64,000 nucleotides of DNA from Chondrosia reniformis (taxonomy: Eukaryota; Porifera; Demospongiae; Chondrillida; Chondrillidae), in contig OX359191.1 in NCBI GenBank assembly GCA_947172415.1, forward strand, positions 5,890,001 through 5,954,000. The letters are read 5' to 3'. The translations under genes were made by a program, and so were the position numbers. The notes under the pieces are model-generated. The model did not search any database. It was given only the letters and a program-made list of their open reading frames with translations, and was not told the origin of the DNA. The stretch's first letter is position 1. Each line of letters starts with the position of its first letter. Below are positions 6,515 to 60,110 of this stretch, in pieces.

Positions 6515-6799
6515 TTTGTTTTCTTGTGGTTTATATACATACTTTACATTCATATGTATGTACTGTATATAATATTCATATGTTCCTACATTCATGGAAT
6601 CATGGAGCACCTTATGTAACAAATTTGTTGTGAACCAACAGCTAGTCAACATATTAAAACTTTCAATATGCAAAAAGTAGCTTCAAATTCTGATTTGCAG
6701 TTGTATGGGTTTTATGTCAAATGGTATGCATTATGACACTAATAGAAGAAAGTCTTTAGCTAAGAATTAGGAACCAGGCATTTTTACTTAAAAGTTTGC

Positions 6800-8160: not shown

Positions 8161-8439
8161 CTCCCGGTAATTAAGATAGGAATGCAATCCATATATGGCA
8201 AAATTCAGGCTCGCCCCACGATTACCCGAAGACTTACGCGATTTTGTCTGTTCATATCTATCGTACGTACATCTTACCGTATACATTACCCAAAACCAAA
8301 TGGCCGCCGCTCGCGAACAGCTTGAATATTCGCCGCAGAAAGCTTCAAACGGTTGGTTAAGCGCACGAAATAAAGAGTACTTGCCAACCTTACCCAACTT
8401 TTTCTGGAGTGCCATCGTGAAGATCAGCACCTATTCTCG

Positions 8440-21336: not shown

Positions 21337-24300
21337 ATGAAAAGGTTCCTCAAAAGAGTTAGTTTGTCCTCCATCGGCTCCCGATCGACCCTTTCTTCTG
21401 CTATCGCGATTCCGACCACTCCCTTCCAATCAAACGAAGTCCTACCTAAGACTGAAGAGCCTGTACCTTCTGGATTAGAGTGGAACCAGGAAGGATATCT
21501 ACTGCGCCATCTCGGTTCGAAAGTGCTGGATGTGCCGTATACTGACGAAATCCTAGAAACGTCAGTCTGTTCTTTCCAAAAGGAAGAATCAGGTCGATCG
21601 TTTCATCTTCAGTTGGCCAATGGAACACTCACAGTGACGGACCTTACGGGACAGGTGCTCATTAAGGAAGATGTTACATCTCTGGTTTCCTGCATACAAG
21701 ACACCTCGCAGAAGGTGCAGGATTGTCTGGGGATTGTGCTACCAGCCGAACCAACTCAACACCATCTGCATATATTCCAGGCAATGTCTTATCGTGAGGT
21801 TAGCTTTGTATGACTCGATCAGAATCATGTTAGTGACATAATAAGGTATAGGACCTGCACCTGCAACCATTGGTATGTTGTTTTATAATTTCTGCTAAGT
21901 TTAATTTCTTACTGTGATACAAATAATCACAGGAACGTTATGCCTAGTGGCCATTGCTTGCCATTAAATAAGACTTCTGTCTCCCCACCACAATAAGATT
22001 TCATGCACTTGTTTGGTCTGGTGTAATGTTTTCCAATGATTATTTGTATAGCATCATATCCTTTGCAACAGCTTAATGCAATTAACTCCCCTTAGTTTCA
22101 TATCCTTATTATCTTTCACTTGCTTGATTTCCTTTTCTTAGGCTGGTGTTATAGTACAGCATCTGAGCTATGCTTTAGGACAGAAAAGACCTCTTAAGCC
22201 ATCGTCTTCTTCTGGTTCTGGAAGTGGGTCTTCTGATAAAGGTACACGCAAGCAGCAAGTTGGAAAGATTGAAGAGGATCCAAAGAGTTTACCAGCAAGG
22301 AATAGTCAAAGTCCTATTAGAACATATGGACAGTCATCTTCGCAACAGCTAGTTGGTGATAAAGCAGTGAGGTGAGTGTTGAGCTGTATACATTTCTGCA
22401 GAGCGTGTTTGGCCTTTTGAAGGAGGTGTACATTAATATACCATTTATGTGTCCATAATTAAGATCTAACTTTATGAGACACAGAGAATTGAAAAAGTAG
22501 TCTATATACGTTTTGGAGATTGAAACATTCTTTAGTGAAGTAAATTTGTCTGCTGAATGGATTTTGCAAAATATAAGTGATACAATCAGTTTCAGTATAA
22601 TATTGATTTACATATTGTTATTATGTACAGTATGTAGTAGCTACGTAGGTAATATTTAAAGTTTCATATTCCAATTATACAAGCAAAGTATTATTTGATT
22701 CTGGATTTACCCCGACCACTTATACCTCTTATTAAGAGCTAATGGGAAGCCCATTTGAGAGAAACAGACTCTTTCTACCCTGTGTCACTCATATAGATGG
22801 TTCATCCATATCAGCACTCATCAGTATGGTGTATCATTGAAGCATGAGTGACAACTTACTCTCAAAAAGTTTGTAATTTCTTTATCAGCAGATAAGGGAC
22901 AGCCAAAGTGTGCCTGACCATTAAATAATTATCAAATATACAAACTATTTAAGGCTAACTGCCCATGAAATACATTGTTACTAATATACATGTAATTCTT
23001 GTGTAAAGATATATACATAAAGGATAAGGAATGCATTCATAATGGTAATTTAAATGATTGAGCATCAGCAATTCAATGCTGATGAAGACCTCCAACATAT
23101 ATTGTTATTTTCAAGTATGTACGTACGTACATATATGTAATCCCCTGTATATTCCTTCCACTGAAGAATCCCTGTAGCTGTACCCTCCAAAGGAGCCATT
23201 CCTTCCCCGGTAGCCTCCAAAACTAGAGCTACTAGGAAAACCTTCAGTGACCTCTCACCTTTTCAAAAGAGGCGTGTCTCCATGAGGAGGGTGGGGTCCA
23301 TTGGCAAGGCCACTGCATTGTCTTTAGGACAATGTATAGAAAGGGTACGTTTAGGAAGAGAGCGAATAAGAGAATATGGGAAAGCTCTAGTATTCAAATG
23401 CAAGTAAGTTAATCTGCCTAATTGTACGGTATGTGCGTACATATGTTTTTGATTGTGTTTTATACATAAAATGAATGAGTGGAATCAGGAGATTTAAACT
23501 AAGGGGCCTACAAATTTATTAACAATGCCTTGGGAATTAAATTACTTACGATAATGGTTAATTAGTTTGTCCTATTAATAGAAGGAGGAGGGAGAGAAAA
23601 GCTATACGTACCATCTTAAATATTAAATTCTTGACCAAGTTTTTGAATGCTTACAATATTAAAGTGCCTGTGTTTGGTGGTATATGATAAAATTGTACTA
23701 AATTATAGTAATTAATTTTTGACCATATACAGCACCTAGCTATAAACGTACAGTTTACCAACACACCTAATTTGTGTACATAACATTACAGTTTGGTTTC
23801 GTGCATTTATAAATGTTTTGACTTCATATTCTGAATAACATAGTGTGTATTAGAGGTGAATTTGAGTATCTTTCAATTGCTACAGAAGTGTGGTTCCTTC
23901 AAGTCAACTCAACATAGCTCTAAAAGCAATATTTGAAAACAATGTGGAAGGTCTAGCCAAACTCCTGAGCACTGCTGGATTGAGTATTGAGTGTGCTGAT
24001 AGTAGCGGGAACACCCTACTGCACTATGCTGTGGCTTGTCAAAGATCAGACATAGTCAAACTGCTCTGTGAAAGGTCAGACATATATACCTTCAGCTGTA
24101 TGTATTTCCTATGTAGAAAATAACATAACAATTAGTTATGCATATAATTGGTGTAGAATACACTATATAGTGTAAATGTTGTTATAAATTTATAAAATTA
24201 CATGTTCATTGCTGTATACTATGTATACCACACACTATACAGCCATAGTCCTTTTTATCAATACTGTATACGTATACATATTTCTGTGAAATACTGGCAA

Positions 24301-27300
24301 TTCAGCAACTGAGATGTAATGTGGATTACTTTAGTTATACTGTGCTCTGCTAGATTGCTCTCAATTCCTCAGCAATTAACATACGTAGGTTCATGGTAAT
24401 GTGACCACATGTGTTTCACAACCTGTTATCTGCCCTCCCCAGAGGAGCTGCTGTTGATAAGAAGAGTGACAATGCCATAACACCTCTACATCAAGCAGCT
24501 GCAGAAGGGACAATTGCTATTATGAGACTATTGCTTGAAAGAGGGGCTTCCCCTAATGACCTGGATAGCCATCTGTAAGCACATTAGTGCATACTGTACA
24601 TTTCACCAGACGATATATGAAGTTTATTGAGCAGCAACAGCAACAGCAACAGCAACATTAAATCTTAGGAATAGAACGTTTCAACCCGTAGGTCTTCATC
24701 AGCAAAGACCTACAGGTTGAAACGTTCTATTCCAAAGATTTAATGTTGCTGTTGCTCAATAAACTTCATATATCATCATGATCGCAACAAATAAACCCTA
24801 TCACTTCATTTCACCAGATATACCCTCCAAACTACTGTTATGAATGTACGTATATATACAGTGTAGTTAGTGTTTTGAATTTGATAAAAATTATTTGATA
24901 TTCCTCTACGTACACTTACAGATTATTGGACGAAGGTTACGCTCTCTGAGAGGATACCGTATTGAATGTAACTCAGTTACTATGCACGTTTCTCCTTTCT
25001 TTCTACTTGTAGCCGTTCTCCACTTCACTTTACAGCCGGGATTGAGAACTCACTTGAATGTACATATGCATTGCTGGAAAGAGGAGCCAGGATCTACCAA
25101 AAGGATGCCCTGGATGTAAGCCCAGTTGACCTCAATAAGGTATGTCTTGACCTCTGATACTAATCCTATGTGTACATAAGTACATAAACAGCCTGCCACA
25201 GGACATGCTTTGGTCACTGATTTTAACTAATAAGAAGAATCACATAGTTATATAGTTATGATATGTACGTACTAAATATATGTACGTATGTACATACAGT
25301 CGACTCCACTTATAATGAACTCGCTCATAACGAATTTTGGGTTATACCGAACGATTGTCAAAAAACAATTTACTGTTCATTCAATTCCTTCTGTTTATAA
25401 CAAACAAACTTCTATTATAATTAACGTGTTAACTTATGATTATGTATGTGTGAAGCCAAAAACGGCTGTATTTATCATTCTTAAACCGAAGTTACTGGAC
25501 GAAGTGGATAAAGGGAGGAAGGAGAAGGGTATTTGTGACGAATTTTCAGTTGAAAAGTCCACCCTGAGTACCATTAATATACTATTTTACGTAATTTTAA
25601 TTTTTGTAAGCATTCTACTGTATTCATACTGCACTGATGAGTAGTTTATTTGTATAGTTATATACAAATAAAGTACATTTGGTTATAAAGAACTTCTTTT
25701 ATAAAGAACAATTATGCTGGGATTTTGGTGTTCGTTATATCAGGAGTCGACTGTATGTTATATATATTGCAGTACCCAGCTAATCCAAACCTTGAAGTGT
25801 GAAGTGACACCCCATTTACACAAATACTTCACCACAACTAAGCATTACCTGTAGGTGCAGGCAGCATACTGTAATGAATTGGCTCAGGCCAGTAGGTACT
25901 CCATAATACATACACACTTTAATGAGGCTGACCCAGGTTCAATATACCCATCCAGTGGCTATGTTTCCTACTTAACGAATAAAATTAATCAAACACTTAC
26001 TTATTGATGTGCATAGATAATTATGTAGTTTTTTTAGCCTCCAACACCTTATTGCTTGCAGTGTGCATAATCAAAGCATAATGCATCTACAAACTAGTAA
26101 GATAGATTTCAGATAGATAAGAAATGCTAGTCTTTTTTTCTTCTTCACAGGCACTGAGGAATATGCAGATTGAACTTGTCAAATCTGTATGTGAGTCTTT
26201 CTCCTCAACTCAAATGAAGGATTATGAGGTTGATTTGAGTGATGATAGTATTGGAGGTTCCCTCAGTTCTCCATTTGATGCTTCTTCCGGCTCTCTTCTC
26301 TTTCCCATGGGCTCTAGGGATCGTTCACTCTCTTCGGAATCTTCCTCTCATGAACAGGCTAACCCTACTTCACCAAGCCCACACATCCCCCACTCAGCTC
26401 AACCTAAGTTGGCATGGCAACCTCAATATGGCTCCCATTTGTCATTATCCCAAGCAAAATATGGAAGCCTGCGCCGATTTGGATCAAGTGAATCATTGGC
26501 GAGTCGTAAATCTGATGAATTATTACAAGTAGTAAAGTTGGCTAATGCACGAGCAGCTAGATTTAAAGAAAAGATTTCCCAGATGAGACAATCTGAATTG
26601 AGACGTTCTACCTCTCAATTGTTTTTGGAAGCTGAGGAAGATGAAATGAGAACAGAACTTAGAAAAGAAAAGCTAAAATTCCCTTCTGACTCTAGTATTA
26701 ATGTGGCTGGAATAGGAATTGAAATGAATGCAGAAGCAATTGAGAAGGAGTTGAATGACTTACTCCAGTTTGGCTTAAGGATTGGCAAGTCTAGGCCAGT
26801 AAGGAGAGCTCAACCAGTCTTGACAGAAGCAGAGTTTCGCTTTGATACTAAGAAACATACCAGTCCTACAGAGAATCTGAGCAGTAACTTGGAACTTCAC
26901 CAAAGTCATGGCAACCTCTCTGCTGTGTCTACCCTAGAAGGCTCAGCATCTCAGAAAGATGTGAGAGTGTTGGATAAGATATCTGGTAGTCACACCTCTT
27001 CAGAGACTCTGGTTAACAAGCAAGGCAGTTCAGAGAGTGATTCAGTGATTACTCATTACACCACTAGTACAGTGGCGATGCAGCAAGCATTCACAGACCT
27101 GCAAAAGGCAGTTGAACATGACAAGTATCATGAACGCATTCGGGCTGTGGCAGAAGGACGGTCTGAAGAAGATATACCAAGGATCTCCATAGCAAAACGG
27201 CCTCTGCATAAGAAACTGAAGTAAATTTGAGCATTAAATTTTACATTTATTTGACACTCTGTGTATATATGTAGTAAACTAAATACTGGTATATCATTTT

Positions 27301-30300
27301 TTGCTGTTGGCAAATTTCTGTATGTGTACATAACTATATATAATTATATACTTTAACAGTCTTAATTAGGTTTGTTGGAGTTATGCACTTGTACTTTTAC
27401 TATCTCAGGTATCATTCCAGTAGTTCTGAGCATCATAGGAGGCAGGAAACCGACACTGTCTTTGAAGCCATCTTGGCTGACCTTCAAGGAGATCTACCAA
27501 ATGAGACTGAAAGCAAGGTCAGGGCTACCTCTAGCACCAAAACCCAGCCTTCTCCTGCTCAGGAGGATTTGCCAACTAAGGAGCCTCCTGTAGTGAAACG
27601 AACACTTGGTCCTGCCATTAGTCTGGAGCCAGTAACCATGACTACAGTGAGACAAAGAAGTGCCAGTGCTCTAGTTGCCAGTAACCATGACTACAAGGAC
27701 ATCTCAGGTTCCACAGCTGGGTCACACCAAAGGAGCAGAAGCTTCACATCCAGTGTTAGCAGTGCTGGGTTACTCAACCCTAGCCATCACAGGTGCTCAC
27801 TGCAGTATACATGAACGGGAAATGTACTTTTTGTAACTGTATGTGTTGTGATACACTGTCAGTGTTGCATAAGCCAAAACTGTAGTGACTGTACTTGTGA
27901 GGGGAACAGTTGATTATGTGTAACTCTTCTACAAGTTTACTATCTTCACATGTTCTTGTTTTGTGTCATTCCTTTGAGTAACCATGTTTCTTATCGTCTC
28001 TAACAGGAGATCCTGGTCTCAGCCATTTTCTATGGCACCCAATGAACCAGGAGCAGCCTCCTTGAAGGGCCTCATAATGCTCTCATCAAATGAAGAGTGC
28101 CTGAGTAAACTCATCCAGTACATCTGCATTCCCAAGTTCTCTACTAATCTGATTATGATGGCAAGGTCTCCAAGGTCAAGTTATGGCATGTTGGCCAACG
28201 TGGCCAGTCTTATGCAGAATATATATGAGGTACATATGTATGTATGTACATGTATACGTATGTGTGGCAGCATGGGGTGTACGTATATACGTAGACATGT
28301 TTATATAGTTGGTATTATAACAGTAATATGGTTTGTGCACTTGCATTTGTATGTAAACCCTTTAATGGAACATCCTACCAAGGTATGGCCTCTGCATCCT
28401 GCAACCAGTCTGTTCTACTTTGCAAGGCCGGCGTGTTTAGATGTGTAATCATTCTAAAGTGCCTTTAACAGAATTTTATTTTGTATAGGTTTTATGTAAT
28501 TATCTGAAAATGTTAAGATAACTGGGGAATTGCCTCCTGATTCATAAGCTTAAAGACTTTGCATGAACCATTCCGCTCTGTTGTGGCCAGACATTTATAT
28601 GGTGTAGAATAGTGCTAAGGTTAATGACATTCATGGCTTGTATGACACATTAGTAGAGAATGTGCCAGGTAATAAAAACGTTTTTATCATCCTCTTTATC
28701 AGCTAGGTTAGTAAATATGACTAGTGATAATCATAAGTTTATCTACTGACCTAATGTACTGGGTGTGTTATTGTTAGCCCAACTGGTACTGGACATGTTT
28801 ACTCAAAAGTCCCTGTCTCAAGGATTATTATGCAACTGGTAGTATACTGGTATATGTTTATAAGACCCTCTATACTATAGTTTATATCCATATACCTGTT
28901 TTTAGGGGTTGCCACAGGTAGCCCCTTATATTATTTTCATTTGCTGATACTGTTGTATGGTTTCATGTTATGGAAAGATATATATACGTATATATATAGA
29001 TTTATAGATATAATACAGGTTCATACGCAACTATGATAACACTTAATTTATACATCAATACATCATTTTTGCAAATGATGGCCTTCAGGAAGCTTTAATT
29101 AACGAAGGTTTTCTATTGTTATTTATAATGTTCAGGACACTTAAGTGTCCTCAATCATTAAGATTATGAATATAAATATTTAATCTCAACGAAGCGGCCA
29201 AGTATTTCAAGTGCGGGGGCGGTAGCCCCACGAGTTTTTAAACTCATAATACTTGTTTTTTTAATAAATACAGATAAGGGTCTAATTGACATTTACCCCA
29301 CACTTACATCACTTTGAATCTCCTATTTCCTATTGTTGTTAACTGTTATGTATGTTGCCTGTAGAACTGCTTACTAACACAGCCACAGACAGTGTAGCCT
29401 GTCCTAGTATTAATTGTCCTGTGAAAAGCAACATGTTTCTCCTGTGTAGGTGGGAGGGTCTGCTGGTCGCAAAAGAGCTGTAGAGTCTGGTATATTAACT
29501 CTCACAGTGAAGCTTCTCAGAGCAAGAGAACCGATTCCAGTAGGTCATATAGTGAAAATCACTCAACACACATGCTTAAGATGTACGTAATTCGTTTTTC
29601 CCAAAGGGTTAATTAGGCCCTGGTTTTCAAAGCATCTCTTGTAATACAAAAATTGTTAATACAAATTTGGCTATTTCACACCAAATATCTTGTGACTGTA
29701 TTCCCTTTACAGTTCAACACAAGCTTAGCAGCTCTGCAGGAGAAACCAGCCCTGCTTTCTGTTTGATATAGCAAAACCTTGGTTATTAATAGACTTTTAA
29801 ATGTAACAGAAGAGGAATACACTGACTGTAGACAGTGTAGATATTTGTAGAAGCAAACTTGTTAACTGATTACTTTTCCAGTAGTCCTATTAATTTTCAA
29901 CTTCAATTTTTATGTTAAACAGATAAACATGAAACTTAGAAACAGTTCCTTCAATTTCGTGTTTAGTGGCCTCAAGTGTATACTTTATTGATAGCTGCCT
30001 GGTCATGCACTAATGTGTGTACATGTAGGAGGGGCTTACGTAATTCACTCAGCTAAAAGCTTCTTAACTGATTACTTTTCCAGTAGTCCTATTAATTTTC
30101 AACTTCAATTTTTATGTTAAACAGATAAATATGAAACTTAGAGACAGTTCCTTCAATTTCATGTTTAGTGGCCTCAAGTGTATACTTTGGAACCTTGCTT
30201 AACGACCACCTCAGTATTAAGACCACCTCAAAATTGTAACACATATTTTTGGTCCCGAGTAATTCTTATATCTCGCCCTGTACTTTAGGTGTTCAGAAAA

Positions 30301-33300
30301 GCGACCACCTCGGAATTCCCTTTTCCGACCACTATTTTCAGACCGATATTTAAAAATAACCAGCAAATAACCTCGGTATAACGACCAAGTGTGAAAACAA
30401 AGTTCGAGTTCTGGTCGTCGCCAATGCCATATCTCATAGAAAACGTTTGTGCAAGCTTTACCTTAGTAAAAGTGCTTTCTAAATCCCTTTCGCTGGTTCA
30501 ATGCTCGACGTTAAGGAAGAAAAAGCTTATTTTTAAGGTAGAAAACGAAAGCCAGCGGAGTGTCTGCCATTTTGTTGACAGCTACGTATTTCCTACGTGT
30601 ACATGTACGTAATAATTTCAGAATTAGGACCACCTCAAAATTAAGGTGGTCCCAAAGGTGGTCGCATTTGTGAGGTTCCACTGTACTTCATTGATAGCTG
30701 CCTGGTCATGCACTACTGCGTGTACATGTAGGAGGGGCTTACGTAATTCACTCAGCTTAAGACTTAAGCTCTAGTATAGCAACAAAGGTTGCCACTTCCG
30801 TTCCCCATTCAATTGGTGGCACAATATGTACAAGTAAATAGTCACTTTTGTGCTTTACGTACAAAAATATGATTAAATGTATTGGACACTTGGTGAAAAA
30901 TCCAGTTGGATTGATTGTTAATCATTAGTTTGATAAAAAGAGGGAGACATAGCTGAAGCATTGCATTTGAAAGGAAGTATTTTTGAAAATCCATGAATCA
31001 AATATGTTTAGTACCAAATTGCTTAGCTACTGGAACCATGTTTGCTACAAAAGACATACGTACTTTACTGGTTAATATTACAAATGTAGTCTTGTAGTTT
31101 CACATTTTGTAGGATCCTATAAATTTTGATATCTCTCAGCAATATAATGTTAAACTTGTGTATACATCTGTTTCTTCAGGGGACCATGCTACAGCTGTTA
31201 TATAGTTTGTTGTTCAGTGAGGAGGACCCCAATAGTTATCTCAGAGCCATTGCTCGAATACCGATATCTCCACTTCTGGCATTTCTAGACAGCACTGACA
31301 AAGATTCGGGAATAGATCCTAGACAGAGAAATATCTCTGTTTCCACTCCACCGTCAGGAAATTCTGTTAGCAATCAATCTAGAGAAAGCACAGGTGCACA
31401 GGTACACAGTGAGTTTAAAGATTTTGAGAAGAGGAGTAACTATGTGGAGACACTGAGCCCTAGAGGGAACTCAGATGGCCCACCACGACCGAGAGGTGGC
31501 TCTCAAACAAGTGACCAACAAGCCAAGCTGACACGCCCCTCTAGCCGTGAAGGTACTTCAACATCAGGGATTGAAACATACTCTGATGGTTTCCATAGTG
31601 ATACAGACAGACGTCATACTGACAGTGGAAGCAGTAGAAGTCTGACCACACCCACTTTACACGGTCAAACCATGACCTTTACTGAGGCTAAGAGGATTGC
31701 TCTCAAACTGTTTGCTGCCCTCAGTGTCTATGATAAGCTACACAGAGAGCTGGACAATGCAAGGTACAGTGCAGTGGACGGGAAGTGCAAAGCGAAAATT
31801 CAATTCCTTCAATGTTTTATGCAGTACTTGATTACTACATAATATTAAAGGGGAAATCCAGGGATTGTATTTAAAGGAGACAATGTCTCTATGCTGTAGA
31901 TTTCTAAGACACTATGAGTAGCACTGGTCTGCTCTATTACTACTATATGTACGTACGTACCTTAATTGATGATACAGTATATACATGCATTCTTACAACA
32001 CACTCATTTTGAAACCTTTCCTAATTGCTGCATATGTTTGTGTTTGTATGCATTTTCGATTCATTTTACATCTAGTTTATTGTTTGTATTGGGTAAAGTG
32101 TTGTCTCTTTCTTTGTATATACAGACATTCAGTTTGTAGTACAGTTGTCCATTATGCATTATATATCTCTACTACGTATATAGAGCAATAGCATTGCTGG
32201 TGGACAGTTTACAAGATGTATCTCAAGAGAACGTCACTAATGCTGTCATGACACTTGCCAATGTGGCAAGGAACACAGCTACACATAGCTTAGTAAGTTG
32301 TCAATTGACAGTATTATTCATACACATAGATACAATTATTAAAATTTTAATTATTGAAATTTACCAACATATACACAGTGCTCCCTTGTTATAACATGCA
32401 ACTTGACTGTTGAAGGTTGTTAGTGTTGGTAATGTAAGACTGATGTTATTAAGTATATGGCTCCTGTACAGAATATGCTTTATCCATATGTGTTACAAAT
32501 CTGTTCCAATGCTTTGGTTTCAAAATGTGGGAGTACTAGCTCATTTGATTCAGACTATAAAGGAATGGGTTCTGAGGGATCTAAGAGTGGATTAATTCAT
32601 AATGTGTGCTCTTGTATTCAGATGAAACAGAGATCTGCTGTAGAGAAACTGAGACCCTTGCTACAGGGAGGCCCAACTATCAGACATCATGCCTGTAGGG
32701 CACTGGTGTACCTCGGGGAAATGGAGACAGATGGAGTCAGTCTCTTTCAGAGAGGAAATGGTAGGCTGGTACTGTAAGCAGCACATATGAGTATAGTTCA
32801 TATACAGTACATAGGCATAGAGTTGATGTACAATGTGAAGCCCTCTATTAGATTCTAAATAGAGAGTGTAAACCGTCAATAATTTACAATGTTTGTATGA
32901 ATAGTAAGGTTTTGTTTTATTGCTAAGTGTGTATTTTGTGTATGTACGTAGGTTATGGTAATGAAGAGGTATTGTATATGACTTCTGAATCAACAGAACT
33001 TGATAAACAACTTTGGTGAGCACCACTATGGCAACAAATGTTATGTGCTCCTATCTCTTATATTGTGTACGTCAACAATGTCTTTTAGAAAATGGTTTCT
33101 AGATTGCCCCATGAAAGTATTCATTATTAATATTGTTACAATCTTGAAACCATTACCAATTTCTACTGGTTACAGATCAGAATTCACTTTTATGTACACA
33201 ATCAAATATCACTCCTAAAAACACCTACGTACTCCTAAATATTTTACAGGGATGATATACGTACCTGATATTGTCTTTTCTGCCTTATTTAGGGGTGCCT

Positions 33301-36300
33301 CTATAGAGCACCTTGTCCATTACCTTATTGAAGACCCAGCTGTACTTTGGAGTGTGGAGAAGGGTATTTCTAAAGTGGGTGTGGCTCATGAGCTGCACAC
33401 TCCCTCAGAAAGAAAAATTACTGAATTTTTTCTTGTCATGATGAAGTCCTATGTTGATCCTCTGATATTTCTAAGGCTTCTCCTTCACAGGTATGCAAAC
33501 ATAAAGTTTGCTTAGGGTAACCCTTAAATGGTAACATAAAACACATAATAATGTGCACATTTAAAGGGTTACTAAAAGGAACATTAGTGATATTATGTAT
33601 GTAAGGAGGTTCAGGGCTTACGTTTCTGGAAGGACTAAATCTGAGCCATCAGAGATTGATATATTAAAGAATAAATAAGGAACTTATACATTGGTATTAC
33701 CCTTTAAGAGTTCTTAAATTTTGTTGTTTAATTAAGGCAGAGACATATATGTAAACATGTATGCATGACAAGGTCTGATGAAACTGGAAAACACTTCAGC
33801 TATGAAAACATGTTGTTAATCTAAAAGCCTAGATTAGAAGTCATAACTTACTCACTTATTTGGAACTCCTATATGTATGTTTATGATTGAGTGTGTACAC
33901 ATTAATACAATTAAGTTTTGACAATGTTCTGTTTGTTGTTAGATTGGTTTCACATGACCTCAGTGGGTACATTCATCGTGTGTTTGTTGGTAATAATGAA
34001 GAGGTAAGCAGAAGTTCCAGTTCTCCTTCGCTCTCCAGAACAGGAGATAGAGTGCTGGATATCATTGAGCAGTGGATGGACAGGCATCAAGATGACTTTC
34101 TAGCTCAACCATTACTACAAGTTAGTCTACCTGAACCAGTTGTATAACTGAATAGACCTAATGCTTAATTGTTGTAAATAACACATTGACAATGTAGTCT
34201 ATTACATACATACATATATTACAATATGTCTGTATTATTTTACTGCTTTGTAGAAAGAGGTTTCAACCCTTTACTGTCAATTGAGGGACATTAGAGGGCC
34301 CTATCTTGCCCATGCACAGAGATTAAAATCACTGTTGGACACACTGGGAGTGAGTTGCTTCGAAATAAAACGAACATATTCTGGACAATATGTTGTAAAT
34401 ATACTATACATCTAAGTACGAACGATGTCTTTCATAGAATTTCCTGGGGTTTCTTCAAGGGGTTTCTTTAGGGGGAGGGGGGAGGGGGTAGGAGTCATTT
34501 GCTTTTACCATCCTTGGAAACATTTTACTCCTTCTCCCCCCTCTCTTGAAGAAAGACAAATTACCATTTTTTGATAGCAAAGAAACATATTGAACTAGTT
34601 AACATTTGTAGTTTGCTAACTCAAAATCTTTTGTTCCCCCTCCTGTGGTATTTCCAAAGGAAACCCTGTATCTGTTACAATTCTGTTAGAGACCACGGGC
34701 TGCCAGCAGTGTGTCTGTTAACACTGAACGATTGCCTCATCATGATCAGTTTTATCCTTTGGTAAGTTAGGCACTGTACATACATATGGTTTATTAATAA
34801 TATATATGGAAGTCTAAATTAGATGTTTTTGGTGTTTCATGTACATGTATAGTGTCAAAAGACTATAGTTGAGGGTCACTTGCCTATAACAGGTGAGCAG
34901 GCTGTGGTGATGGCAGCTTTACAGGTTCACATTGAGTCCTATGAGTTGAGGGACTTTGCAAAGCAGAAGGAAAGTGGAAGGGGAAAGAAGTGAGTTTATC
35001 AGGACAAAAAATGTACGTACCCCACTGAAATGATGGCAGGTTCTTCTAACTACATGCATACATATATATGTGTTATCTTATCTACGTCACCGAACTTATG
35101 TTTCATCTTTCAATCTTTTTGAACAACTATAGACACAGTCTTGGATCTACTTGTCAGACGTTTCAACCACTGGGGGTCTTCTTCAGTAGCCATCTTTAGA
35201 TCCCTCGAAAGAGATCAAAAGATGAAAATATTCAAATATTTACTTTATATAAAAATGTGATTCATTTGTTAATTTGTAGTCTCAAAATATGCCTATGCTA
35301 AAGAATATATACAGTACTAGTGATATTTTGAATCCAGATAGCCTACTTAGGTAGTCTAAGAAATTAATCAATCCATTGAATGGTATGAACTATAAACATT
35401 TCTTTTCATATAATATGTACATTTTGCTTACAGGCATTTTCAGCAGCAAATTAAGAGATCACTTCCATCTGTATATCAAAAGACAAAGAATGTATGCAAA
35501 AGGTTGGTTTGGGTCAATAACTACTTACATACTGTACATACATCAGTGTTCAGAGCAACAGCCAAGTTCTACAGGCACATGAACGTACATGTGATTGCGG
35601 TCACCTATTGTGCTAAAATGTATAAATCACAGCCAGTGTAAATGTAATTAAGTTTACACAGGACCCTGTTCAACATACGTACATAATGACTTTGACCCAC
35701 CCTGTTCAACATACGTACATAATGACTTTGACCCACACTGTTCAACATACGTACATAATGACTTTGACCCACACTGTTCAACATACGTACATAATGACTT
35801 TGACCCACACTGTTCAACATACATACATAATGACTTTGACCCACACTGTTCAACATACGTACATAATGACTTTGACCCACACTGTTCAACATACATAAAT
35901 AATGACTTTGACCCACACTGTTCAACATACATAAATAATGACTTTGACCCACACTGTTCAACATACATACATACATAATGACTTTGACCCACACTGTTCA
36001 ACGTACGTACATAATGACTTTGACCCACACTGTTTAACGTACGTACATAATGACTTTGACCCACACTGTTCAACATACGTACGTACATAATGACTTTGAC
36101 CCACACTGTTCAACATACGTACATAATGACTTTTACCCACACTGTTCAACATACGTACATAATGACTTTGACCCACATTGTTCAACATACATACATAATG
36201 TCTTTGACCCACACTGTTCAACGTACGTACATAATGACTTTGGCCTACACTGTGCAATTATTCCCTACGTACATTTCAAGAATCCTGCAGCCTCTAATCA

Positions 36301-39300
36301 TGAGGTACACTTTTAGTGATATATATACATTGACCAGATAACATGATCACTAATTAACAGTTAATGAAAGATATGCATTACTGTTTGTTTTACTAGTTGG
36401 TAAAGAAAGGATGTATCAAAATGTTGTTTCATCTTCATTTTAATATGTAGTATTGTTATGTCAGGCAGAATGTTCTTAAATTTATTTTCTGTTTCTATGA
36501 ACTCCATTACTTATTCATCACAAAAAGGATTATTGATAAATAGCTACTGAAGCCATACATATTTAGTTATATAATGATAAAAACCATACAAGTGTTATAA
36601 TGAAAGAAGTTAAATATGGAATCTAATAAGTATAGCTTTCGAGGAGTTGAGTACGAGTTTCAGGAGAATAGGCAACTAATTGAGCGGTATATCTGCCCTA
36701 TATGCCAAGAACTGATTAATGATCCTGTACAGACCTCTTGTGGCCACTTGTTTTGTGAATTTTGCCTAAGAATTAATAACTCGGGATTCTGTCCAGCCTG
36801 TAGAACTCTCTTCTCAGAGCAGCCAAGGAGAGACAAGTTTAACCAGAGAGAGGTCAAAAAACTCACAGTTAGTTGTCCTAATAAGGCCAAAGGGTGTTCT
36901 CTGGTTGGTGACCTAGGAGATATTATCAAACATTGTAACCTTGAAGATGGGAAGGGGTGCCTCTACCAGTTAGTCACCTGCTCTAAATGTAGAAATAAGA
37001 TGGAAGGAAGACACTATTCTTACCACATCAAGGAAGAGTGCCCCTCTAGATTATATACCTGCCCCAACTGCCAGAACTCTGGACCATACGAAAAGATAGC
37101 AAATAGTCACTTGAAGGAATGCCCACATTTGCCAATTGAATGTCCAAACAAATGTGGTGTAACAAATGTATTAAGGAAAGATATCAGTGATCACCTCTGT
37201 TCCTGTCCCTTGGAGGTTGTATCCTGTCGTTATAAGGTGCTCGGTTGTCGAGTCAGTTTGCCAAGGAAAATGATGAAACACCACTTGTCTGAGAAAAAAG
37301 ATGACCACTTGGATATAGCTTTGGATACAATAACGCAGCTCACTACAAGACTGTCACAGCTCCAATCAAGTTTAGACTTTCTCTCCAATCAGTTTACCTT
37401 TTTGACAAATGCTGTTAAACCAGGCCTGGAGTTACCAAAGCGACCAGTGCCACAGCACCACGGATACTGGCTTCAAGTTGAACCCTTTCCTCTGTACCCG
37501 CCATGTGTGCTGAGAATCACAAGATTAGCGGTTGGTACAACTCGCACCCACCCCTTTTACAGTAAGGTAGGCGGATACCAGCTTAACATTCGAGTGAGTC
37601 TGGAGAATCAGAGTTTCTTGACTATAGAGTTGGACTTTAATCACTTGGATGATACTAACAATTTTCTACCAAATTCATGTGTTGAAGTGGACTTGACACT
37701 CCTCAATCAAACTAAAGATAGTAGCCATATTTCCCACAAGTTAAATGGTAATGCATGGATAAGTGAAGTGAAGGATAGTCGTGTGAGGTTTCCTCTACCC
37801 AGTGCTAGTAGAGGTAGCACGTGTTATATCAAGGATGGGCAACTCTTTGTACGAATCAACTCTGTCAAATAGAGATTTCATGATTGCATGTTAAACTGTA
37901 TTTACATTTTGTTTAAAGCTGTAATAATGTGCTTTGACTACTCTATATTTTACTGCTAAATTTTTAAGTTTCAATTTGTTATTATGGGACAGAAGAGCTG
38001 ATTTTCCTTTTATTTTCCATTTATTAATTACATATGGTAATGCTATTCCATGTAATGATGAAGTATCAGTCTCCACACTTTGTGTCCTGGGTGCTTGAAA
38101 CATTTTAACACATGAATGGAATGGAATGTAAATATTATTTGTTTAAAGATTGATAATGTTGCTAATCTTGATTGTCTTGGACATTCTTAATGGTACGTAG
38201 GTATGACATTTTTAGTATGTTTGTTCAAGGTATCAAGATGACCCTTGCCCTGTACATTTTGCAGAGTACAGGAACAGCTAGGGAAGTTCAGTAAATTGTC
38301 TATACGCAATGCCAAGCATCTGTACATAGAAAAGTGCCAAGCTCTGCCTGGATATGGATGCCAGTTTTTCAGTGTTACATTAAAGGTGAACTTTCCTTTA
38401 ATCTCTACATGTGACAGTGACAGTGACAGTTATATTTGGATTAGAATGACACTTTGGTTTGATGTATTCTGTAGAGCCCAACTGGTAGCCTGTTTAGAAA
38501 AGGGCAAACTGAGAGTAGGCTTCTTGGTATTGGTGACAAGGAAATGATACTCTTAGATGGGAGAACAAAGGTTTGATGCCATATATCCGACTATTCAATT
38601 AGACACCCAAAGGTTTCATGAAGCTATATATATTCTGTTTATATTGGTGGTATAAACAATGTGTGTATCTGTGTATTTGAGAATGAAGTCTTATAGAGTG
38701 TCAGCAACATGAATTTATTAATTCTGGACGTTTCAACGCTGAAGTCTTCATCAGCAATATACGTATATTCTCATAATGATCGCCACAAGCACTCCTTATT
38801 TCTTCATCTGTGTATTTTGTACGTCATTATAGACATTTGTTTATGCCTATGGTTACTCTAATTATTGGATATATATATATGACTATTTAAAGTACGTATA
38901 TCTCAATCAACATAGTGAGCTTTATACATAAATAAGAAGCTTAATTGCTCCATTAAATGGCTGTTTACCTACTTTAGTGGCTACTGTATGTTTCATAATA
39001 TTTGTCATTTTCCATATGCACAGCAAGTGTTGAGTCAGTTTAATGTTAAAGATATTGTGAAATATGATGGAGACAGAGAAAAGTGTCTTGTAACTGTTAA
39101 ACTGAAGGGCAGACAATTTACATTCATTACCGAAGACCAGAGTGCCGCTGACGGTATATTGAGAATCCTTGAGCAGTTTGAGGAGGAGTATAACTGGCAG
39201 GTTCGTATAGATCTAGTGTGCTTGCAGTGTACACACAGTATGCTTATAGAACTGCTACATATATAGTACATAATTTGTATGAAAGAGTTGCTAAAGATAT

Positions 39301-42300
39301 ATTGTAAGATAACATGCTAGAAATCCAATTTTGATAATAAAACATAAAGTTCATATACATACGTACGTTTCAAATAGAGATTGTTGGATAAATTATAATT
39401 GTTTAAAAGAATATCCTAACATTGAAGTTACCTATTTACTTGCACAGCATCACATGATGTATTGTGGGTAGTATATTACTTATAACTACATATGGATGTA
39501 GTAAAATGTAATTCAAAACATTTGAAATACTACAATAAAGTTTTAATATTGTTTTGGATTCTTTTTATGTGAGTGCATGAGTCATAGGCTATTAAAAATT
39601 TTATATAGTTTCTCATTGAGTGATTGTGGGACTGGTTCAGGCTGTCCTGCATGCAAGAATTTTAAACTTTTTAATCTTTTGCTCAGCAACTGAGTGGTGA
39701 TGACCTTGAACAATTTGACCAATCACTTGAGCACTTGGATCATTCCAATACTACTCGCCCTGCTGCTACTAGGCAGTACTCTGGACATAGAATGGCTGTT
39801 GAACATGTGTTATTGACTGCAGCTGTTGGTCTAGATCAATCACACAATATGTCAGCTGACAATCACATGACAGCCTTCCCTGTGGGTGTGGATGTGGGCA
39901 GTGTCCCAACTCTTTTTTCACCATGGAATCCATCTTATATGCACGAGGAGGAGGATGATGATGATAGCTATGTTATTAAATTTATTTGTGATTGTCCTCC
40001 AGATCCTGAATTAGGACATCTTCAACTCAGTGATATTCAGTAAGTAAACAATATAAATATGAGTTATTATGAGATTACAAGTGTTTCATTTATGATGAAT
40101 TAATAATTTGAAGTTAGTTATCCAGACCACCATCATGGAACTGTATCACACTGATGAGCCCAAATAAGGGAAAACAGCTCTCTGTGGTTCTTTGATAATT
40201 TTTCCATCTTGGATCACATGTTGTTTTGTTTGCTATGCTACTGTACAGCTTTTAGTTTAACTTATGTTCATATTTATAGACTGCCTGAATTGCTAGAATA
40301 CCCACTTGAAGTGGCGAGGCAGATTACCCTTATCGACCATGGTAAGATTCAAAGTACACTGTAAGTAGCTCAGACCATTGTTTCATTTACTGCAAACAAA
40401 ATTGGCAAGAAATCCATGGACATTTATATGCATATACAGCGGACATGATTTCTTTTAATGACCCCTTGTTCATGCACGTTAATGTATTTTGTAACCCCTA
40501 TCATGCACAGGGACATACACGTAAATGCCCTCTATACAGTTCTATAGCCATATTATGTAGGTTATCAACTTGCACCTTAGTCCTTAGGCTAATTGTCTTC
40601 TGTCTACCTTACTTTATTAGAACTCCTTAGTCGTGTAACTGCTACTGATTTGCTGTGGAAGATAGGGATGGCATCCCACTATCGTGCTACAGGAGAACCA
40701 CATGCCTCATCCCAGTCCATCACATCCAGTTCCCTTAGCACATTAGAACAGGCAGAAGGAACCATAGAAAAACTGGCTTTCAGATTCAATCTGGTAAACT
40801 GAACAACTTGTGTGCTAGCCTAGTGATATACGCATATGACTTTACAAAAGATCAGTTTCAACTGTAACGCTATATTTATATACCATAACATGCGAAAAAG
40901 TGGGTGGAAAGGGTACAAGTGGGAGATAGAGGAAATTATTCTCTTAATTGAGTGGGAAAATTTTATCATGATCTACTGGTATGCTGGGTTTTATAGGATC
41001 AGTATTCTGCTGATTAGTTACCTTATGATTGCTTAAACTGTTCCCACTTGCACCACACAACAAAATGTTGTGTGGTTCAAGTAATAATGTTCTGTATTAT
41101 AAATACAAAAGTCGGCCTTTATAATTTCAAATCATGTTTTTTCTTAACTTCATGGCTTTCTAGCTTATATTATTTATATTCTGTAGCTTGGTGACTGGGT
41201 GGCTAGTAGTATTTTGCAGTACAATACACCGGAGGAGAGAGCTGAGGTTGTAATGAAATTCATAGTTGTAGCCAAAGTATGTCACTAACAATAACCTTAT
41301 CTAAGCTCTATTGATTTTGTATTGCTTGTCACATGCATAGCACTGCTTTGAGTTACGCAACTACAGTGCAGTAAGAGCAATCATTGTGGCTGGGCTACAG
41401 TCTCCATCAATCAGACGATTAAAAAGTACTTGGCAAGTAAGCATTAGCCCTATTTACTTTACCCTATAACAAGTAACTACATTTCAACAGAGTCTTTAGT
41501 CTATTGTACGTACTGTATATGATTATGTATTTTAGATTGTGCCAGTGAAACATCAAGATTTCCTTAAGAAAATGGACAACTTATTTGTATCAAAGGTAAA
41601 TATATCTATTGATCCTGCTTCATGTATCTGTAAATCATAAACACAGGCTTTAGCATAAAATATAAATTTAACTATGTACGTATATTTAAATATCTCACAT
41701 AAAGGAATCAGGTATGATACATTCAAACCCTGTTAAGATGAAATGGTAGGACCGTGAAAATATTTCCATCTTAAGCGAGTACATCTTAAGCGAGTTCAAC
41801 TGTTGTTATAATGTGACACTTGTGTCTGGAATTTCATAGATATTATGTCTTATAACATGAAGAAAAAGCAAGTGCTCACCGAGACGGTCTTCAAACGATG
41901 TCACGAAACCAGTGTGCTAGAAGGCCTTTTCGTGGAATACCACCACTCATCAGTAGCACTGGGTTTCTGTTAACCTTCAGGTGTTGCTAGGCCAATTGTC
42001 ATTGAAGGCAGCGACCAGGTAACATCTGAATACCTGCGATTTTGAATTCAAAAACGTCTCAACCAAGTCGTTACAGCGTTATACTTAATGAAGCACTTGC
42101 TCTTTCTTCATTTATTGCTCAGGTCGAGCTCCAACTGAATTAGACTAATTGCCTACTGGAAATCTATGTTTCTTTATTTAGGTCTACGGACCATTGTATA
42201 CCTCGTGTATGTTATCCTACAGCGGTAAAGACCAATAATTCTTTGTCTTCATGTCTTATAACAGTCTACTTCTTTTCCTCGATCTCACAGAACAACTACA

Positions 42301-43278
42301 AAAAGTATAGAGACATGCTGGCCAACACTACACTGCCTTCAATACCATATTTCGGAGTTTTCATGAAAGATTTGAAACAAATTGTGGAGTATAACCCTGG
42401 CTATTTAAAGGGAGGCTTAGTCAATCTGAAGAAGCGAAGACAGGTATGAATACATTCAAAATTAAACCAATAATTCTCTCCGAAATTGATAATAGGTCCA
42501 TCTATCATTTGTTTCCAAAACATACATACAAATGAAGTATATATGTTTATGTACACATATACTCAGCTTTTTCTGTGTGTAGCATTGTTTATACACATAA
42601 TACATGCATGAAGTGGTAGTTATAGTTGCATTCATGGATCCAGTTGGTTATTTTGTGCAATCTGCAACATAATTCGAGAATTTGGACTCTCTTGATTGAT
42701 TTTTTTCATTTTGCACAATTTTTCACAACTCAACTAATGTCACCCCTATTCTATTTAGCTAGCATCTTTAATCATTGTCCTGTGTATTGTGATGAAGATC
42801 TAGGGTCAAAATGTCCAAATCCTTGAAATCTATTGCTGATTGCTCATAATAAGAATCCAACTGGGTTGTAAATACATGTGTGTAAAAGTGTATGAATAAT
42901 TGTCGAAATGATAAAGTAATTATAATCTCAAACACCATGCACCATATATACAGTATTATATGCACGAGGTAATTTAAATAATTGTACTTATTGTTGTAGA
43001 TTTATGAAAAGGTAGAAGAAATAGCTGTCTTCCAACGACATCGATACAATTACAGATGTGTCCCTGAGATCAGAGACTACTTGCTCCATACCACAATCAA
43101 TTGCAAAACAGAAGAAGCACTGCATGAAATATCTCACTTGCTGGAGCCTAAAGAAGATAGATCTGGAAGCCAAATTTCACTCAGGTCTACCAGAGCTGGT
43201 TCAATGTCATCTCTCACAAACATACCTTCAGGAATAATGCGTATATTTAGGCATGGCAGTACAGAATCTATAACATAG
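21337..43278 (+). CDS. Multidomain Ras-family exchange factor: PTB - ankyrin - ARM-like - REM - FERM - RasGEF (31 exons)
   Basis: Exons, all GT-AG with matching phase: 21337-21798, 22142-22371, 23167-23403, 23886-24074, 24443-24574, 25013-25139, 26151-27220, 27409-27792, 28007-28229, 29450-29539, 31180-31763, 32184-32292, 32472-32760, 32952-33015, 33293-33490, 33943-34120, 34254-34349, 34690-34761, 34853-34989, 35434-35502, 38265-38385, 38475-38570, 39024-39200, 39687-40039, 40280-40341, 40621-40793, 41187-41276, 41341-41436, 41536-41595, 42291-42443, 43000-43278. Sum 6600 nt, 2199 residues. Domains: PTB-like (about 48-172), ankyrin repeats (311-459), Ser-rich disordered region (460-943), ARM/HEAT-like helices (944-1397), REM (1398-1522, W-M-D-R-H-Q-D-D-F), talin-like FERM F2-F3 (about 1580-1778, L-P-G-Y-G-C-Q-F-F then L-L-G-I-G-D-K), acidic linker, CDC25 catalytic domain (1897-2160, with N-Y-S-A-V and R-R-L-K-S-T-W). 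It should load GTP on a Ras/Rap-type GTPase at membranes. Confidence 0.85.
24612..24774. repeat. Near-perfect foldback element with a (CAACAG)n expansion in one arm
   Basis: The left arm, from gatatatgaagtttattgag to the phrase gaacgtttcaacccgtaggt, is repeated in reverse complement up to cttcatatatc at 24774. The left arm has extra cagcaa units. The centre holds cttcatcagcaaagacc, the same dispersed motif as at 18002, 35157 and 38726. It lies in the intron after the second ankyrin exon. Confidence 0.9.
25297..25753. mobile_element. Non-autonomous pogo/Tigger-type (Tc1-mariner) MITE with TA target duplication
   Basis: Terminal inverted repeats cagtcgactcc (25297) and ggagtcgactg (ending 25753) are flanked by TA on both sides. 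Subterminal phrases such as cataacgaattt and gttataaagaac are typical of pogo-like ends. The 118-codon forward frame inside has no recognisable transposase. It lies in an intron of the RasGEF gene. Confidence 0.85.
28905..28990. repeat. Dispersed repeat copy (partner at 60133-60215)
   Basis: Phrases ttattttcatttgctgata and ggtttcatgttatggaaaga match, with a few substitutions, sequence at about 60150-60215 (ttgttttcatttaccgatta, gcttcatgttacggaaaga). The copies are over 30 kb apart, so this is an interspersed element end in a RasGEF intron. Confidence 0.6.
29862..30756. repeat. Tandem ~200-bp duplication, second copy interrupted by a MITE
   Basis: The sequence from ttaactgattacttttccag to gcttacgtaattcactcagc appears at 29862-30054 and again from 30064. 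In the second copy it is split at 30184 by the element at 30185-30683 and resumes at 30686-30756. Homology continues across the break, giving an exact empty site. Confidence 0.85.
30185..30683. mobile_element. Non-autonomous Tc1/pogo-like MITE inserted at TA
   Basis: It begins ctttggaaccttgc and ends gaggttccactg, imperfect terminal inverted repeats, with TA on both sides. The interior has inverted phrases (aacgaccacctcag / aaggtggtcgcattt). The uninterrupted paralogous copy at about 29980 gives the pre-insertion sequence and confirms the boundaries. The 73-codon internal frame is not transposase-like. Confidence 0.85.
35105..35228. repeat. Foldback element with the dispersed GACGTTTC motif
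   Basis: catctttcaatcttt near 35105 is complementary to gagatcaaaagatg near 35212-35225. Between them is gtcagacgtttcaaccactg followed by ggtcttcttcagtagcc. It is related to the element at 17935 and lies in an intron of the RasGEF gene. Confidence 0.7.
35664..36256. repeat. 36-bp tandem repeat, about 16 copies, with TACG slippage
   Basis: The unit reads catacgtacataatgacttt then gacccacactgttcaa. Units differ mainly by gain or loss of 4-base tacg/tacа-type steps and single substitutions. Because 36 is a multiple of 3, several frames on both strands stay open by periodicity alone, so the 70-150-codon frames here are not genes. It lies in the same RasGEF intron as the nested TRAF gene. Confidence 0.95.
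36616..37872 (+). CDS. TRAF-like RING/zinc-finger/MATH-like protein, intronless, nested in a RasGEF intron
   Basis: 418 residues in one exon, on the same strand as the host gene, in the intron between the FERM exons ending at 35502 and starting at 38265. RING: C27, C30, C42, H44, C47, C50, C59, C62. TRAF zinc fingers are at about residues 85-240 with V-G-D-L-G-D-I-I-K-H, as in the paralogue at 14026. A Q/L-rich stretch (about residues 235-265) may be a short coiled coil. The C-terminal MATH-like domain (about 285-418) keeps Y-S-K-V-G-G-Y-Q-L and T-L-L-N-Q but has lost S-G-P-N-D...W-P-F. Family role: ubiquitin ligase or adaptor. Its own promoter must lie in the intron, just after the 36-bp repeat array. 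Confidence 0.87.
   Translation: MESNKYSFRGVEYEFQENRQLIERYICPICQELINDPVQTSCGHLFCEFCLRINNSGFCPACRTLFSEQPRRDKFNQREVKKLTVSCPNKAKGCSLVGDLGDIIKHCNLEDGKGCLYQLVTCSKCRNKMEGRHYSYHIKEECPSRLYTCPNCQNSGPYEKIANSHLKECPHLPIECPNKCGVTNVLRKDISDHLCSCPLEVVSCRYKVLGCRVSLPRKMMKHHLSEKKDDHLDIALDTITQLTTRLSQLQSSLDFLSNQFTFLTNAVKPGLELPKRPVPQHHGYWLQVEPFPLYPPCVLRITRLAVGTTRTHPFYSKVGGYQLNIRVSLENQSFLTIELDFNHLDDTNNFLPNSCVEVDLTLLNQTKDSSHISHKLNGNAWISEVKDSRVRFPLPSASRGSTCYIKDGQLFVRINSVK
41857..42111. mobile_element. Small MITE-like element with ~20-bp inverted termini
   Basis: The left end atgaagaaaaagcaagtgct (41857) and right end agcacttgctctttcttcat (ending 42111) are inverted repeats with one mismatch. The ~255-bp element has no coding frame. 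A pogo-like phrase (ttaagcgagtacatcttaag) lies just upstream at about 41770 and may belong to another fragment. It is in a RasGEF intron. Confidence 0.6.
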
Positions 43279-44517
43279 TGATCACATTCTTGTATATAAA
43301 TAATTAATTTATAATTTGGTTCATGTAAACTTTACTGGTGCATCATATGAACCAAACGTACATGTTGCATGCAAGCATTTAAGATTTAGCATGAAGGTCT
43401 GGATATTTTAAGGTGTCTCGGTTATAAATTTTATTTTATATTTATATAGCACCAGGGGACATCTCCTGTACATGTAAATTAGGCATTTGACTATATATTA
43501 CATAACGATCAGATTTCTCCATGTATATACAATACTTCATAAAGGAATGTCGGACTGCTTAAGCTTCATATTCCAACCAGAGGGGAAAGATTGGAACTGG
43601 AAAGCTAAATCGTCCGCTTAATATGTCCCAGGTAGCCCAGATGGAAGGCCTTAGAGTCCCGGCAACCCAAAGTTGAAGCGACAGAGCCTCTGCTCCTTTC
43701 CAGAGTGCAACACAAAGGAAGCTCCCACTTGGATTGGCCAGGTCCATCTGCTGACAGAGGAAGCTACACTCAGGCTGCTACTGCTGTCTCACCGGTGGAA
43801 CTGCGATACATGCAGAACTATAGTGCAATGGCTGAAATATAAAGCCAAACAACTGCAAGTGATTACAATTAGGGTTAGAGATTTTGGCCACAAGGGCTTC
43901 ACCAGCGATCGCAGCAGCCACACGTGCCGTGACGTATTTATTGCACGTGTCGCACGCGCTATGACACCTCCACCATTCATTCATATGTATATTGGTTGCT
44001 GGTGGCCAAAGCAATGGGATGGCCAGGGCTCACCTCCAGGGCAGTAAAGAAAAAGAAAGAAAAGTGACACCCCCTACCATCAACACTGATTGTTGACTGC
44101 TTTGAGCTGAAGGGTCATTCCTAAAATTGATATTAAAACACACAATTGTCAATTGTCACTAATATATTATTTTCACCTGCAGCTGTATTATATCCATAGA
44201 CACTGCTACATAGTATAGATAAATGGACGATGTTTATCTTGTTCATATTGTCACTATAAGGCTACCAACATGCAATTTATGATTGCAAACATAGTCGCTT
44301 TGATAAGAGCTTTAACTTATTCACTCTCCAATATAAATATGGCACACCCACACAGTGTAAGAGTTTCATCTACTTTCAATTTAAGAGATTGAAATAGCTT
44401 AATTATGACTTTTGGATTTTTAGGTCGTTTCATTGACATGAAATGTGACCTCTCCTTCAATTCGTTTTCGATTGTTTACGTTACTAAACGTGTTATATGT
44501 TTTTCCGTGCAGTCAAA
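43279..44517. other. Spacer between RasGEF and WD40 genes with a GC-richer block
   Basis: 43560-44045 is distinctly GC-richer than its surroundings and keeps several frames open on both strands (a 124-codon forward frame starts at 43673). No family is recognisable, and the competing frames argue against a real protein. It could be an old element or a non-coding exon. The rest is AT-rich and contains the WD40 gene promoter. Confidence 0.4.
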
Positions 44518-55006: not shown

Positions 55007-55559
55007 TGTTGTAGGCTAGGTGTATAACAGTCATCAGGAAAACAAAGGTAACTAATTGTATGGATGTACCACTTGCAGTTTTAAAAGGATTTTTTACTGA
55101 AATTGTGCATAACTAATGTATATTATTGAATATTCTTTGTGAAGCTGTATAAAACTTCCATTATATGAATCCTCGTCAATTTGAAGACTTACAGATGAAA
55201 ACAGTATTATTAAAGTGAAGAATTACCAGCAGTGCATAAACATAGCTATCAAATTTCCAAAGTCTCATAATAATATTATACATATAACATGGTGAATCAG
55301 CTATGCAGCATACTGTACATAGTTCTGTAGCCTTGGGTGCATAATTATATCCATATACATTCACTTTGTTACTTTTCCAGATGTTCCAGTCACTGTTTCA
55401 AGCACTGCTATCCTTACTACTGTATATAACTTCATTTTTAAATGTATTAACATTATAAGTATGATACATGATTTTAACTGACAACCTCTCGGTAGAGTGA
55501 ATATATAATAAATATAAGATGAGAATAATGGAATTATACAGAAAGACTAGATTTCAAAG

Positions 55560-60028: not shown

Positions 60029-60110
60029 CTTCTGATATCTTGGAAATATCTGGAAAGAATTCTTAAAGCTTCCTGTATATAGATTTGACTAGAATGAGCT
60101 GGTGGTCTCC

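Follow-up and report, generated by a model that had tools for sequence, protein, structure and literature searches.

A predicted Ras-family exchange factor gene of the sponge Chondrosia reniformis with a talin-type F2-F3 insert between REM and CDC25

In CDC25-class exchange factors, the REM domain steadies a hairpin of the catalytic CDC25 domain, and a domain lying between the two, such as the RA domain of Epac, regulates the enzyme. Both Epac (RAPGEF3-4) and PDZ-GEF (RAPGEF2-6) carry a regulatory domain in this position, the order in Epac being REM-RA-CDC25. The F3 lobes of talin and kindlin bind NPxY tails (those of integrins) and acidic lipids, and in talin the Trp of the motif IKRW matters for integrin binding. 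The connection of integrins with Ras/Rap signalling runs, in vertebrates, through several separate proteins, talin included. KRIT1, a protein of the Rap1 pathway, has ankyrin repeats with a full FERM domain directly after them, and lacks REM and CDC25. The RasGEFs of Dictyostelium combine their core with partner domains unseen elsewhere, some of them linked to actin, and words beginning with FERM or ankyrin occur zero times in the main text of the paper describing them (PMC1273635).

Within a window of 64,000 nucleotides from the genome of Chondrosia reniformis, we analysed a predicted coding span of 31 exons and 2199 residues on the forward strand (21337..43278), using its exon list, phases, translation, codon scores and a gene finder. 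The predicted product is a large RasGEF with the order ankyrin repeats, REM, FERM part and CDC25, which bears out the central claim of the earlier note; the parts are recognised with Pfam, REM more weakly than the others. At the level of sequence, the order and homology of the ankyrin repeats, the F2-F3 lobes of the FERM part and the CDC25 domain are established. We know of no vertebrate RasGEF with this domain order, and a literature search by title or the start of the abstract, with subscription journals mostly outside its coverage, did not find it described. The predicted gene would encode an exchange factor of the CDC25 class whose domain order is new, and most likely a Ras-family exchange factor that is recruited to membranes or receptor tails.

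The gene was assembled by hand from the sequence. All 30 introns are GT-AG, the phases agree and a single open frame results; the 31 exons at 21337-43278 (+) join in phase and yield the residue count claimed before. Exon 13 has a long form (32472-32760), which gives 2199 aa, and a short form (32622-32760), which gives 2149 aa; the extra 150 bp of the long form have a positive in-frame codon score, with exon 13 within the training set, and stops in both other frames. When codons were scored against an intron background, each exon being excluded from the set that trained its score, the in-frame score was above zero in 31 of 31 exons and totalled 725 bits. Nine exons (1, 3, 9, 17, 20, 25, 28, 29 and 30) score higher in another frame if stops are ignored; the alternative frames contain stops in all nine cases, and six of these exons are shorter than 160 bp. 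By a simple consensus score, the splice sites of the model fall in the 79th to 100th percentile of the region's AG sites and the 85th to 100th percentile of its GT sites. A gene finder, prone to adding tiny, even empty, exons, was trained on seven ORFs from elsewhere in the window and run four times with differing settings. With a nested TRAF-like gene masked, it returned 28 of the 31 exons exactly, all in one gene, among 41 predicted exons of which 13 are extra or deviate from the model; of the other three runs, two divide the locus into two genes each and one into five.

The CDC25 catalytic domain (40280..42443, +; exons 25-30, aa 1906-2106) matches PF00617 above the Pfam cut-off (E 3.6e-50) over profile positions 1-181 of 181, i.e. 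as a complete domain, just as had been read from the sequence before. The last exon (43000..43278, +), into which the alignments with RasGRF1 and Cdc25 extend, encodes the end of the CDC25 region and a C-terminal tail and ends in the stop TAG. The closest solved relatives are RasGRF1 (E 5.8e-30), yeast Cdc25 (3.2e-29) and RasGRP1 (4.5e-24), followed by RalGPS1 and SOS1, and the hairpin stretch reads FGVFMKDLKQIVEYNPGYL here versus LGMYLTDLVFIEEGTPNYT in RasGRF1 and FGVYLSDLTFVYHGNPDYL in Cdc25. RasGRF1, Cdc25 and RasGRP1 are thus the nearest in their solved catalytic domains, but the protein differs from them in what surrounds this domain: DH, canonical PH, IQ, EF-hand and C1 gave no match at E up to 1, and a PH_SLA1 match lies on F3. 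No CDC25 subfamily appears distinct enough to be named. Exchange on a Ras-family GTPase is predicted, with the target GTPase not readable from the sequence. The REM domain upstream (33293..34120, +; exons 15-16, aa 1399-1522), also claimed before, is significant though weaker and stands at the edge of the curated cut-off: in three cuts, RasGEF_N scored 27.0, 29.2 and 23.7 bits (E 5.3e-6, 1.1e-6 and 5.9e-5), exceeding the cut-off of 28.3 bits in one of the three, and REM had no match in the PDB at E up to 1.

Between REM and CDC25 lie two FERM lobes of talin type. The F2 lobe (34853..38385, +; exons 19-21) is split by intron 20; its FERM_M match spans aa 1574-1682, starting in exon 18, and reaches 58.5 bits when joined (E 1.1e-15), over the Pfam cut-off. 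The PTB/PH-like F3 lobe (38265..39200, +; exons 21-23) is recognised by phmmer matches to talin and kindlin and by PH_SLA1; a linker with an acidic run, seen in the translation, occupies exon 24 (39687..40039, +). Searched against the PDB, F2-F3 matched 33 distinct sequences at E up to 0.1, of which the top 19 are talins and the rest comprise 10 kindlins, 3 PTPN21 and 1 unrelated protein (best E 9.9e-6 for talin-2 and 0.01 for kindlin-2). The talin alignments are collinear from F2 into early F3 and end at query residue 210-213 of 268, the kindlin-2 alignment reaching 226. In the later part of F3 the talin likeness fades and the sole match is PH-like (PH_SLA1, with 28.2, 26.7, 26.9 and 23.2 bits in four cuts against a cut-off of 27, exceeded in one); IRS on F3 stays below its Pfam cut-off. 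Pfam gave no match to FERM_N ahead of F2 at E up to 1, and because the REM match ends at aa 1522 and the FERM_M match starts at aa 1574, leaving only about 50 residues in between, we conclude that F1 is absent and that the FERM part consists of F2-F3 only. The FERM domain of the earlier note therefore holds for talin-type F2 and F3, and fails as a full FERM, with F1 missing.

A broken talin was ruled out as an explanation because this genome encodes a talin elsewhere, on contig C13. The F3 exon of this talin matched talins in 24 of 24 PDB matches (best E 7.9e-24), counting an entry named "MKIAA1027 protein", which we take to be talin-1. At E up to 1, the whole protein has 12 Pfam matches, none of them to a talin-rod family.

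The protein resembles Epac and PDZ-GEF in having REM and CDC25 with a regulatory insert, and the CDC25 domain matches that of Epac2 (RAPGEF4) at E 2.7e-18; it differs from them in that the insert, at the position of RA in Epac, is a talin-type F2-F3. Cyclic-nucleotide, DEP, PDZ and RA domains gave no Pfam match at E up to 1 in the whole protein. Talin and kindlin have a similar F2-F3, whereas here no F1 precedes F2 and the lobes are fused to an exchange factor. KRIT1 likewise combines ankyrin repeats with a FERM-type module, but it is not among the 33 PDB matches to F2-F3.

Intron 20 (35503-38264), which splits F2, contains an intronless TRAF-like gene on the same strand (36616..37872, +; RING and zf-TRAF by Pfam, MATH at only E 0.04). 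When this gene is left unmasked, the gene finder closes a gene at 35978 and joins the TRAF-like ORF with the exons that follow it, as might be expected if the catalytic half consisted of two genes separated by the TRAF-like gene. We consider this very improbable. A break at this point is contradicted by the FERM_M match, which continues as one across both sides of intron 20, with halves of 28.0 bits (profile 14-67) and 21.6 bits (profile 78-112) at consecutive profile positions, and the talin alignment is likewise collinear across the nested gene.

We propose that the locus is a single gene without a close paralogue, encoding a 2199-residue REM-F2F3-CDC25 exchange factor of the Ras family that is recruited and activated through F2-F3, a reading that we hold to be probable, if modestly so. 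In this mechanism, F3, perhaps together with F2, would bind an NPxY-type receptor tail and/or PI(4,5)P2. Such binding would carry the enzyme to the membrane and free the REM-CDC25 pair from inhibition, and as a result of this release Ras or Rap would be loaded with GTP at the membrane or receptor site. The ankyrin repeats, the ARM-like region and the long Ser-rich linker may serve as a scaffold for docking and phosphorylation.

Against an integrin-like mode of binding speaks the sequence alignment, in which IKRW of talin-1 is aligned to IVKY here, the talin Trp being replaced by Tyr. F2-F3 could instead be a structural spacer that packs REM on CDC25 and binds neither tail nor lipid, with recruitment left to the ankyrin repeats. 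The loss of F1 and the change of Trp to Tyr in the talin tail site would both fit a spacer, but F2 and early F3 are still recognisably like those of talin and kindlin, whose F3 binds integrin tails, as the E values of 9.9e-6 and 0.01 indicate; we regard the spacer as unlikely, albeit deserving some weight. Returning to recruitment and activation through F2-F3, a bolder version would make the protein a member of an old, unnamed family of animal Ras/Rap exchange factors with a talin-type tail-binding lobe within REM-CDC25, in which contact with NPxY motifs or integrins activates the GTPase directly, without adaptors, and which was retained in sponges and lost in vertebrates. We put this forward as a conjecture that is itself rather doubtful. 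A sponge protein with talin-type F2-F3 lobes inside a Ras-family exchange factor would place the link between integrins and Ras/Rap in one molecule, in an animal that branched early, and its REM-F2F3-CDC25 fragment is of a size that permits direct testing.

The earlier note had assigned tail binding to a PTB domain at the N-terminus, coupling the protein to phosphotyrosine or NPxY tails. The region concerned (21472..22195, +; exons 1 and 2, about aa 46-172) gave no Pfam match (limit E 10, with HMMER filters removing most matches above 0.1), and the three PDB matches returned by phmmer, with E 1.2 to 1.4, are to isoleucyl-tRNA ligases and thus not relevant. A home-made profile built from five PTBs of the same genome (5 of 7 PTB loci) gave a score of 10.8 and a probability of 0.13, a score that 53 of 100 shuffles reach and that other stretches of the same protein surpass; in the control, 5 of 5 left-out PTBs were recovered at probabilities of 73 to 98, with 0 of 40 shuffles each. 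On these three lines of sequence comparison (Pfam, phmmer against the PDB and the five-PTB profile with its positive controls), we reject a PID-class PTB at the level of sequence. AlphaFold2 models of exon 1, in full and in trimmed form, are of low confidence and give weak PTB/PH-like hints, and the two disagree. Foldseek and VIA-align, which both caution against low-confidence models, were applied to the first model only, and VIA-align covers its listed families only, such that a family outside the list could still fit. The domain may be a PH-superfold adaptor. What is left of the PTB are inconsistent fold hints, and its coupling to phosphotyrosine or NPxY tails is without sequence support; talin-type F3 would be the better-founded candidate for binding an NPxY tail or phosphoinositides.

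The ankyrin repeats (23886..25139, +; exons 4-6) were read correctly before, being over the Pfam cut-off (Ank E 9e-19, Ank_2 E 6.8e-18) and found again in the full protein. After them come a long Ser-rich linker, seen in the translation (26151..27792, +; exons 7-8), and a helical region of ARM/HEAT type with a Ser-rich insert (28007..32760, +; exons 9-13), for which the Pfam matches lie below cut-off. The ARM solenoid claimed for this region could not be confirmed: its matches to HEAT_2 and Arm are weak and under their cut-offs (E 9.8e-4 and 0.03, respectively), with 15 and 14.8 bits for Arm against 20.6, and 16.8 and 19.8 bits for HEAT_2 against 27.7, in two cuts. A PDB search found designed ARM proteins at E 1.3e-5 by whole-sequence score, with no single stretch significant, and the first half of the region had no match in Pfam, nor in a PDB search with part of that half.

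For the Ser-rich linker, and again around exons 11-15, the joins depend on gene prediction, and here two adjacent genes might have been taken as one, an ankyrin adaptor (exons 1-7, or 1-11) and an ARM-REM-F2F3-CDC25 exchange factor. The join of exons 7 and 8 is by anatomy the least certain because an in-frame TAA lies directly after the exon 7 donor, and an in-frame ATG stands shortly upstream of exon 8; nevertheless, this join (27220 to 27409) is made in all four runs of the gene finder, and among the AG and GT sites of 20000-44000 its acceptor and donor rank at the 99th and 87th percentile, respectively. Under a raised intron cost, the gene finder closes one gene at 31842 and opens another at the ATG at 32457, and the run with cheap start codons is the one that yields five genes. 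The break at 31842/32457, however, drops exon 12, whose weak ARM-like match starts in exon 11. No domain match in the Pfam and PDB searches was found to bridge exons 7-8, 8-9 or 13-15, which leaves the two-gene alternative some room, and we judge it improbable beside the single gene considered so far.

Comparisons within the genome covered this genome only, as an assembly of 117,379,552 bases in 15 contigs in which the window is C3:5890001-5954000; the published assembly is described as 117.37 Mb in 14 scaffolds, with a longest scaffold of 10.41 Mb and an N50 of 8.46 Mb, alongside a mitochondrial genome of 17.45 kb (PMC12181767). The counts from the paralogue and domain searches are lower bounds, as domains split by introns are missed, the window's own F2 included. 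The N-terminal 343 aa showed no paralogue at E up to 1, all four matches being the gene itself. Elsewhere in the genome, F2-F3 had three weak matches, the best of them the C13 talin (E 0.007), and CDC25 had four, 34-42% identical over short stretches. There are at least 26 matches to FERM_M and at least 30 to RasGEF, the latter in about 17 places by manual grouping, that of the window included. Among these matches, the closest pair of FERM_M and RasGEF lies 28 kb apart on C11, and no FERM_M match came up within 25 kb of any RasGEF place found, in a search that intron-split domains escape.

The gene could also belong to an old, unnamed RasGEF family of sponges or early animals that is already present in public annotations and was lost in vertebrates, a possibility that we hold to be evenly balanced and that is compatible with the single F2-F3-recruited exchange factor preferred here. 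The core domains are well conserved by Pfam, and the genome annotation of the species is public; the paper concerned lists RNA-seq data (run ERR10177766) and two gene annotations for Chondrosia reniformis (PMC12181767). In this case the domain order may already be in databases, though we found it undiscussed.

The nested gene has its nearest relative in an ORF of the window (14041-15132, 43% identical). A 36-bp minisatellite of 16 copies (35666..36257) lies beside it in intron 20. The window contains five more long single-frame TRAF-like ORFs, at 3-1094, 2222-3553, 5141-6682 (-), 7006-8430 (-) and 14008-15240; in Pfam, all five have zf-TRAF and four have MATH, which is shortened in 7006-8430. 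In the genome, the nested gene has at least 107 matches, drawn from the best 100 of 152 candidates, many of them in long open frames. The predicted TRAF-like genes are a large expansion, with tight clusters on C2 and C3 among the matches listed.

Several introns carry repeats. Intron 5 has a near-perfect fold-back at 24609-24777, with 52-bp arms that are 96% complementary around an 8-base spacer, and an extra 34-bp pair (88%) outside. A 467-bp element in intron 6 (25292-25758) has 29-bp inverted ends (ACAGTCGACTCC..., 86% complementary) and looks like a small DNA transposon. In intron 10, a tandem pair of units of about 202 bp (29855-30765) has its second unit broken by about 495 bp (30189-30683), an insert that contains inverted repeats of the GACCACCT type; because the second unit carries this insert, the first resembles, by eye, a naturally empty insertion site of a mobile element. 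Immediately downstream of the exchange factor gene lies a single-frame WD40 gene (44488-45867), in which generic WD40 is over the cut-off and most of the named beta-propeller families listed fall below their own. Two further ORFs on the reverse strand, 53831-55015 (395 aa) and 59579-60088 (170 aa), have no Pfam match at E 0.01, and the latter contains three repeats around RINQDxNxGAGGKYIY.
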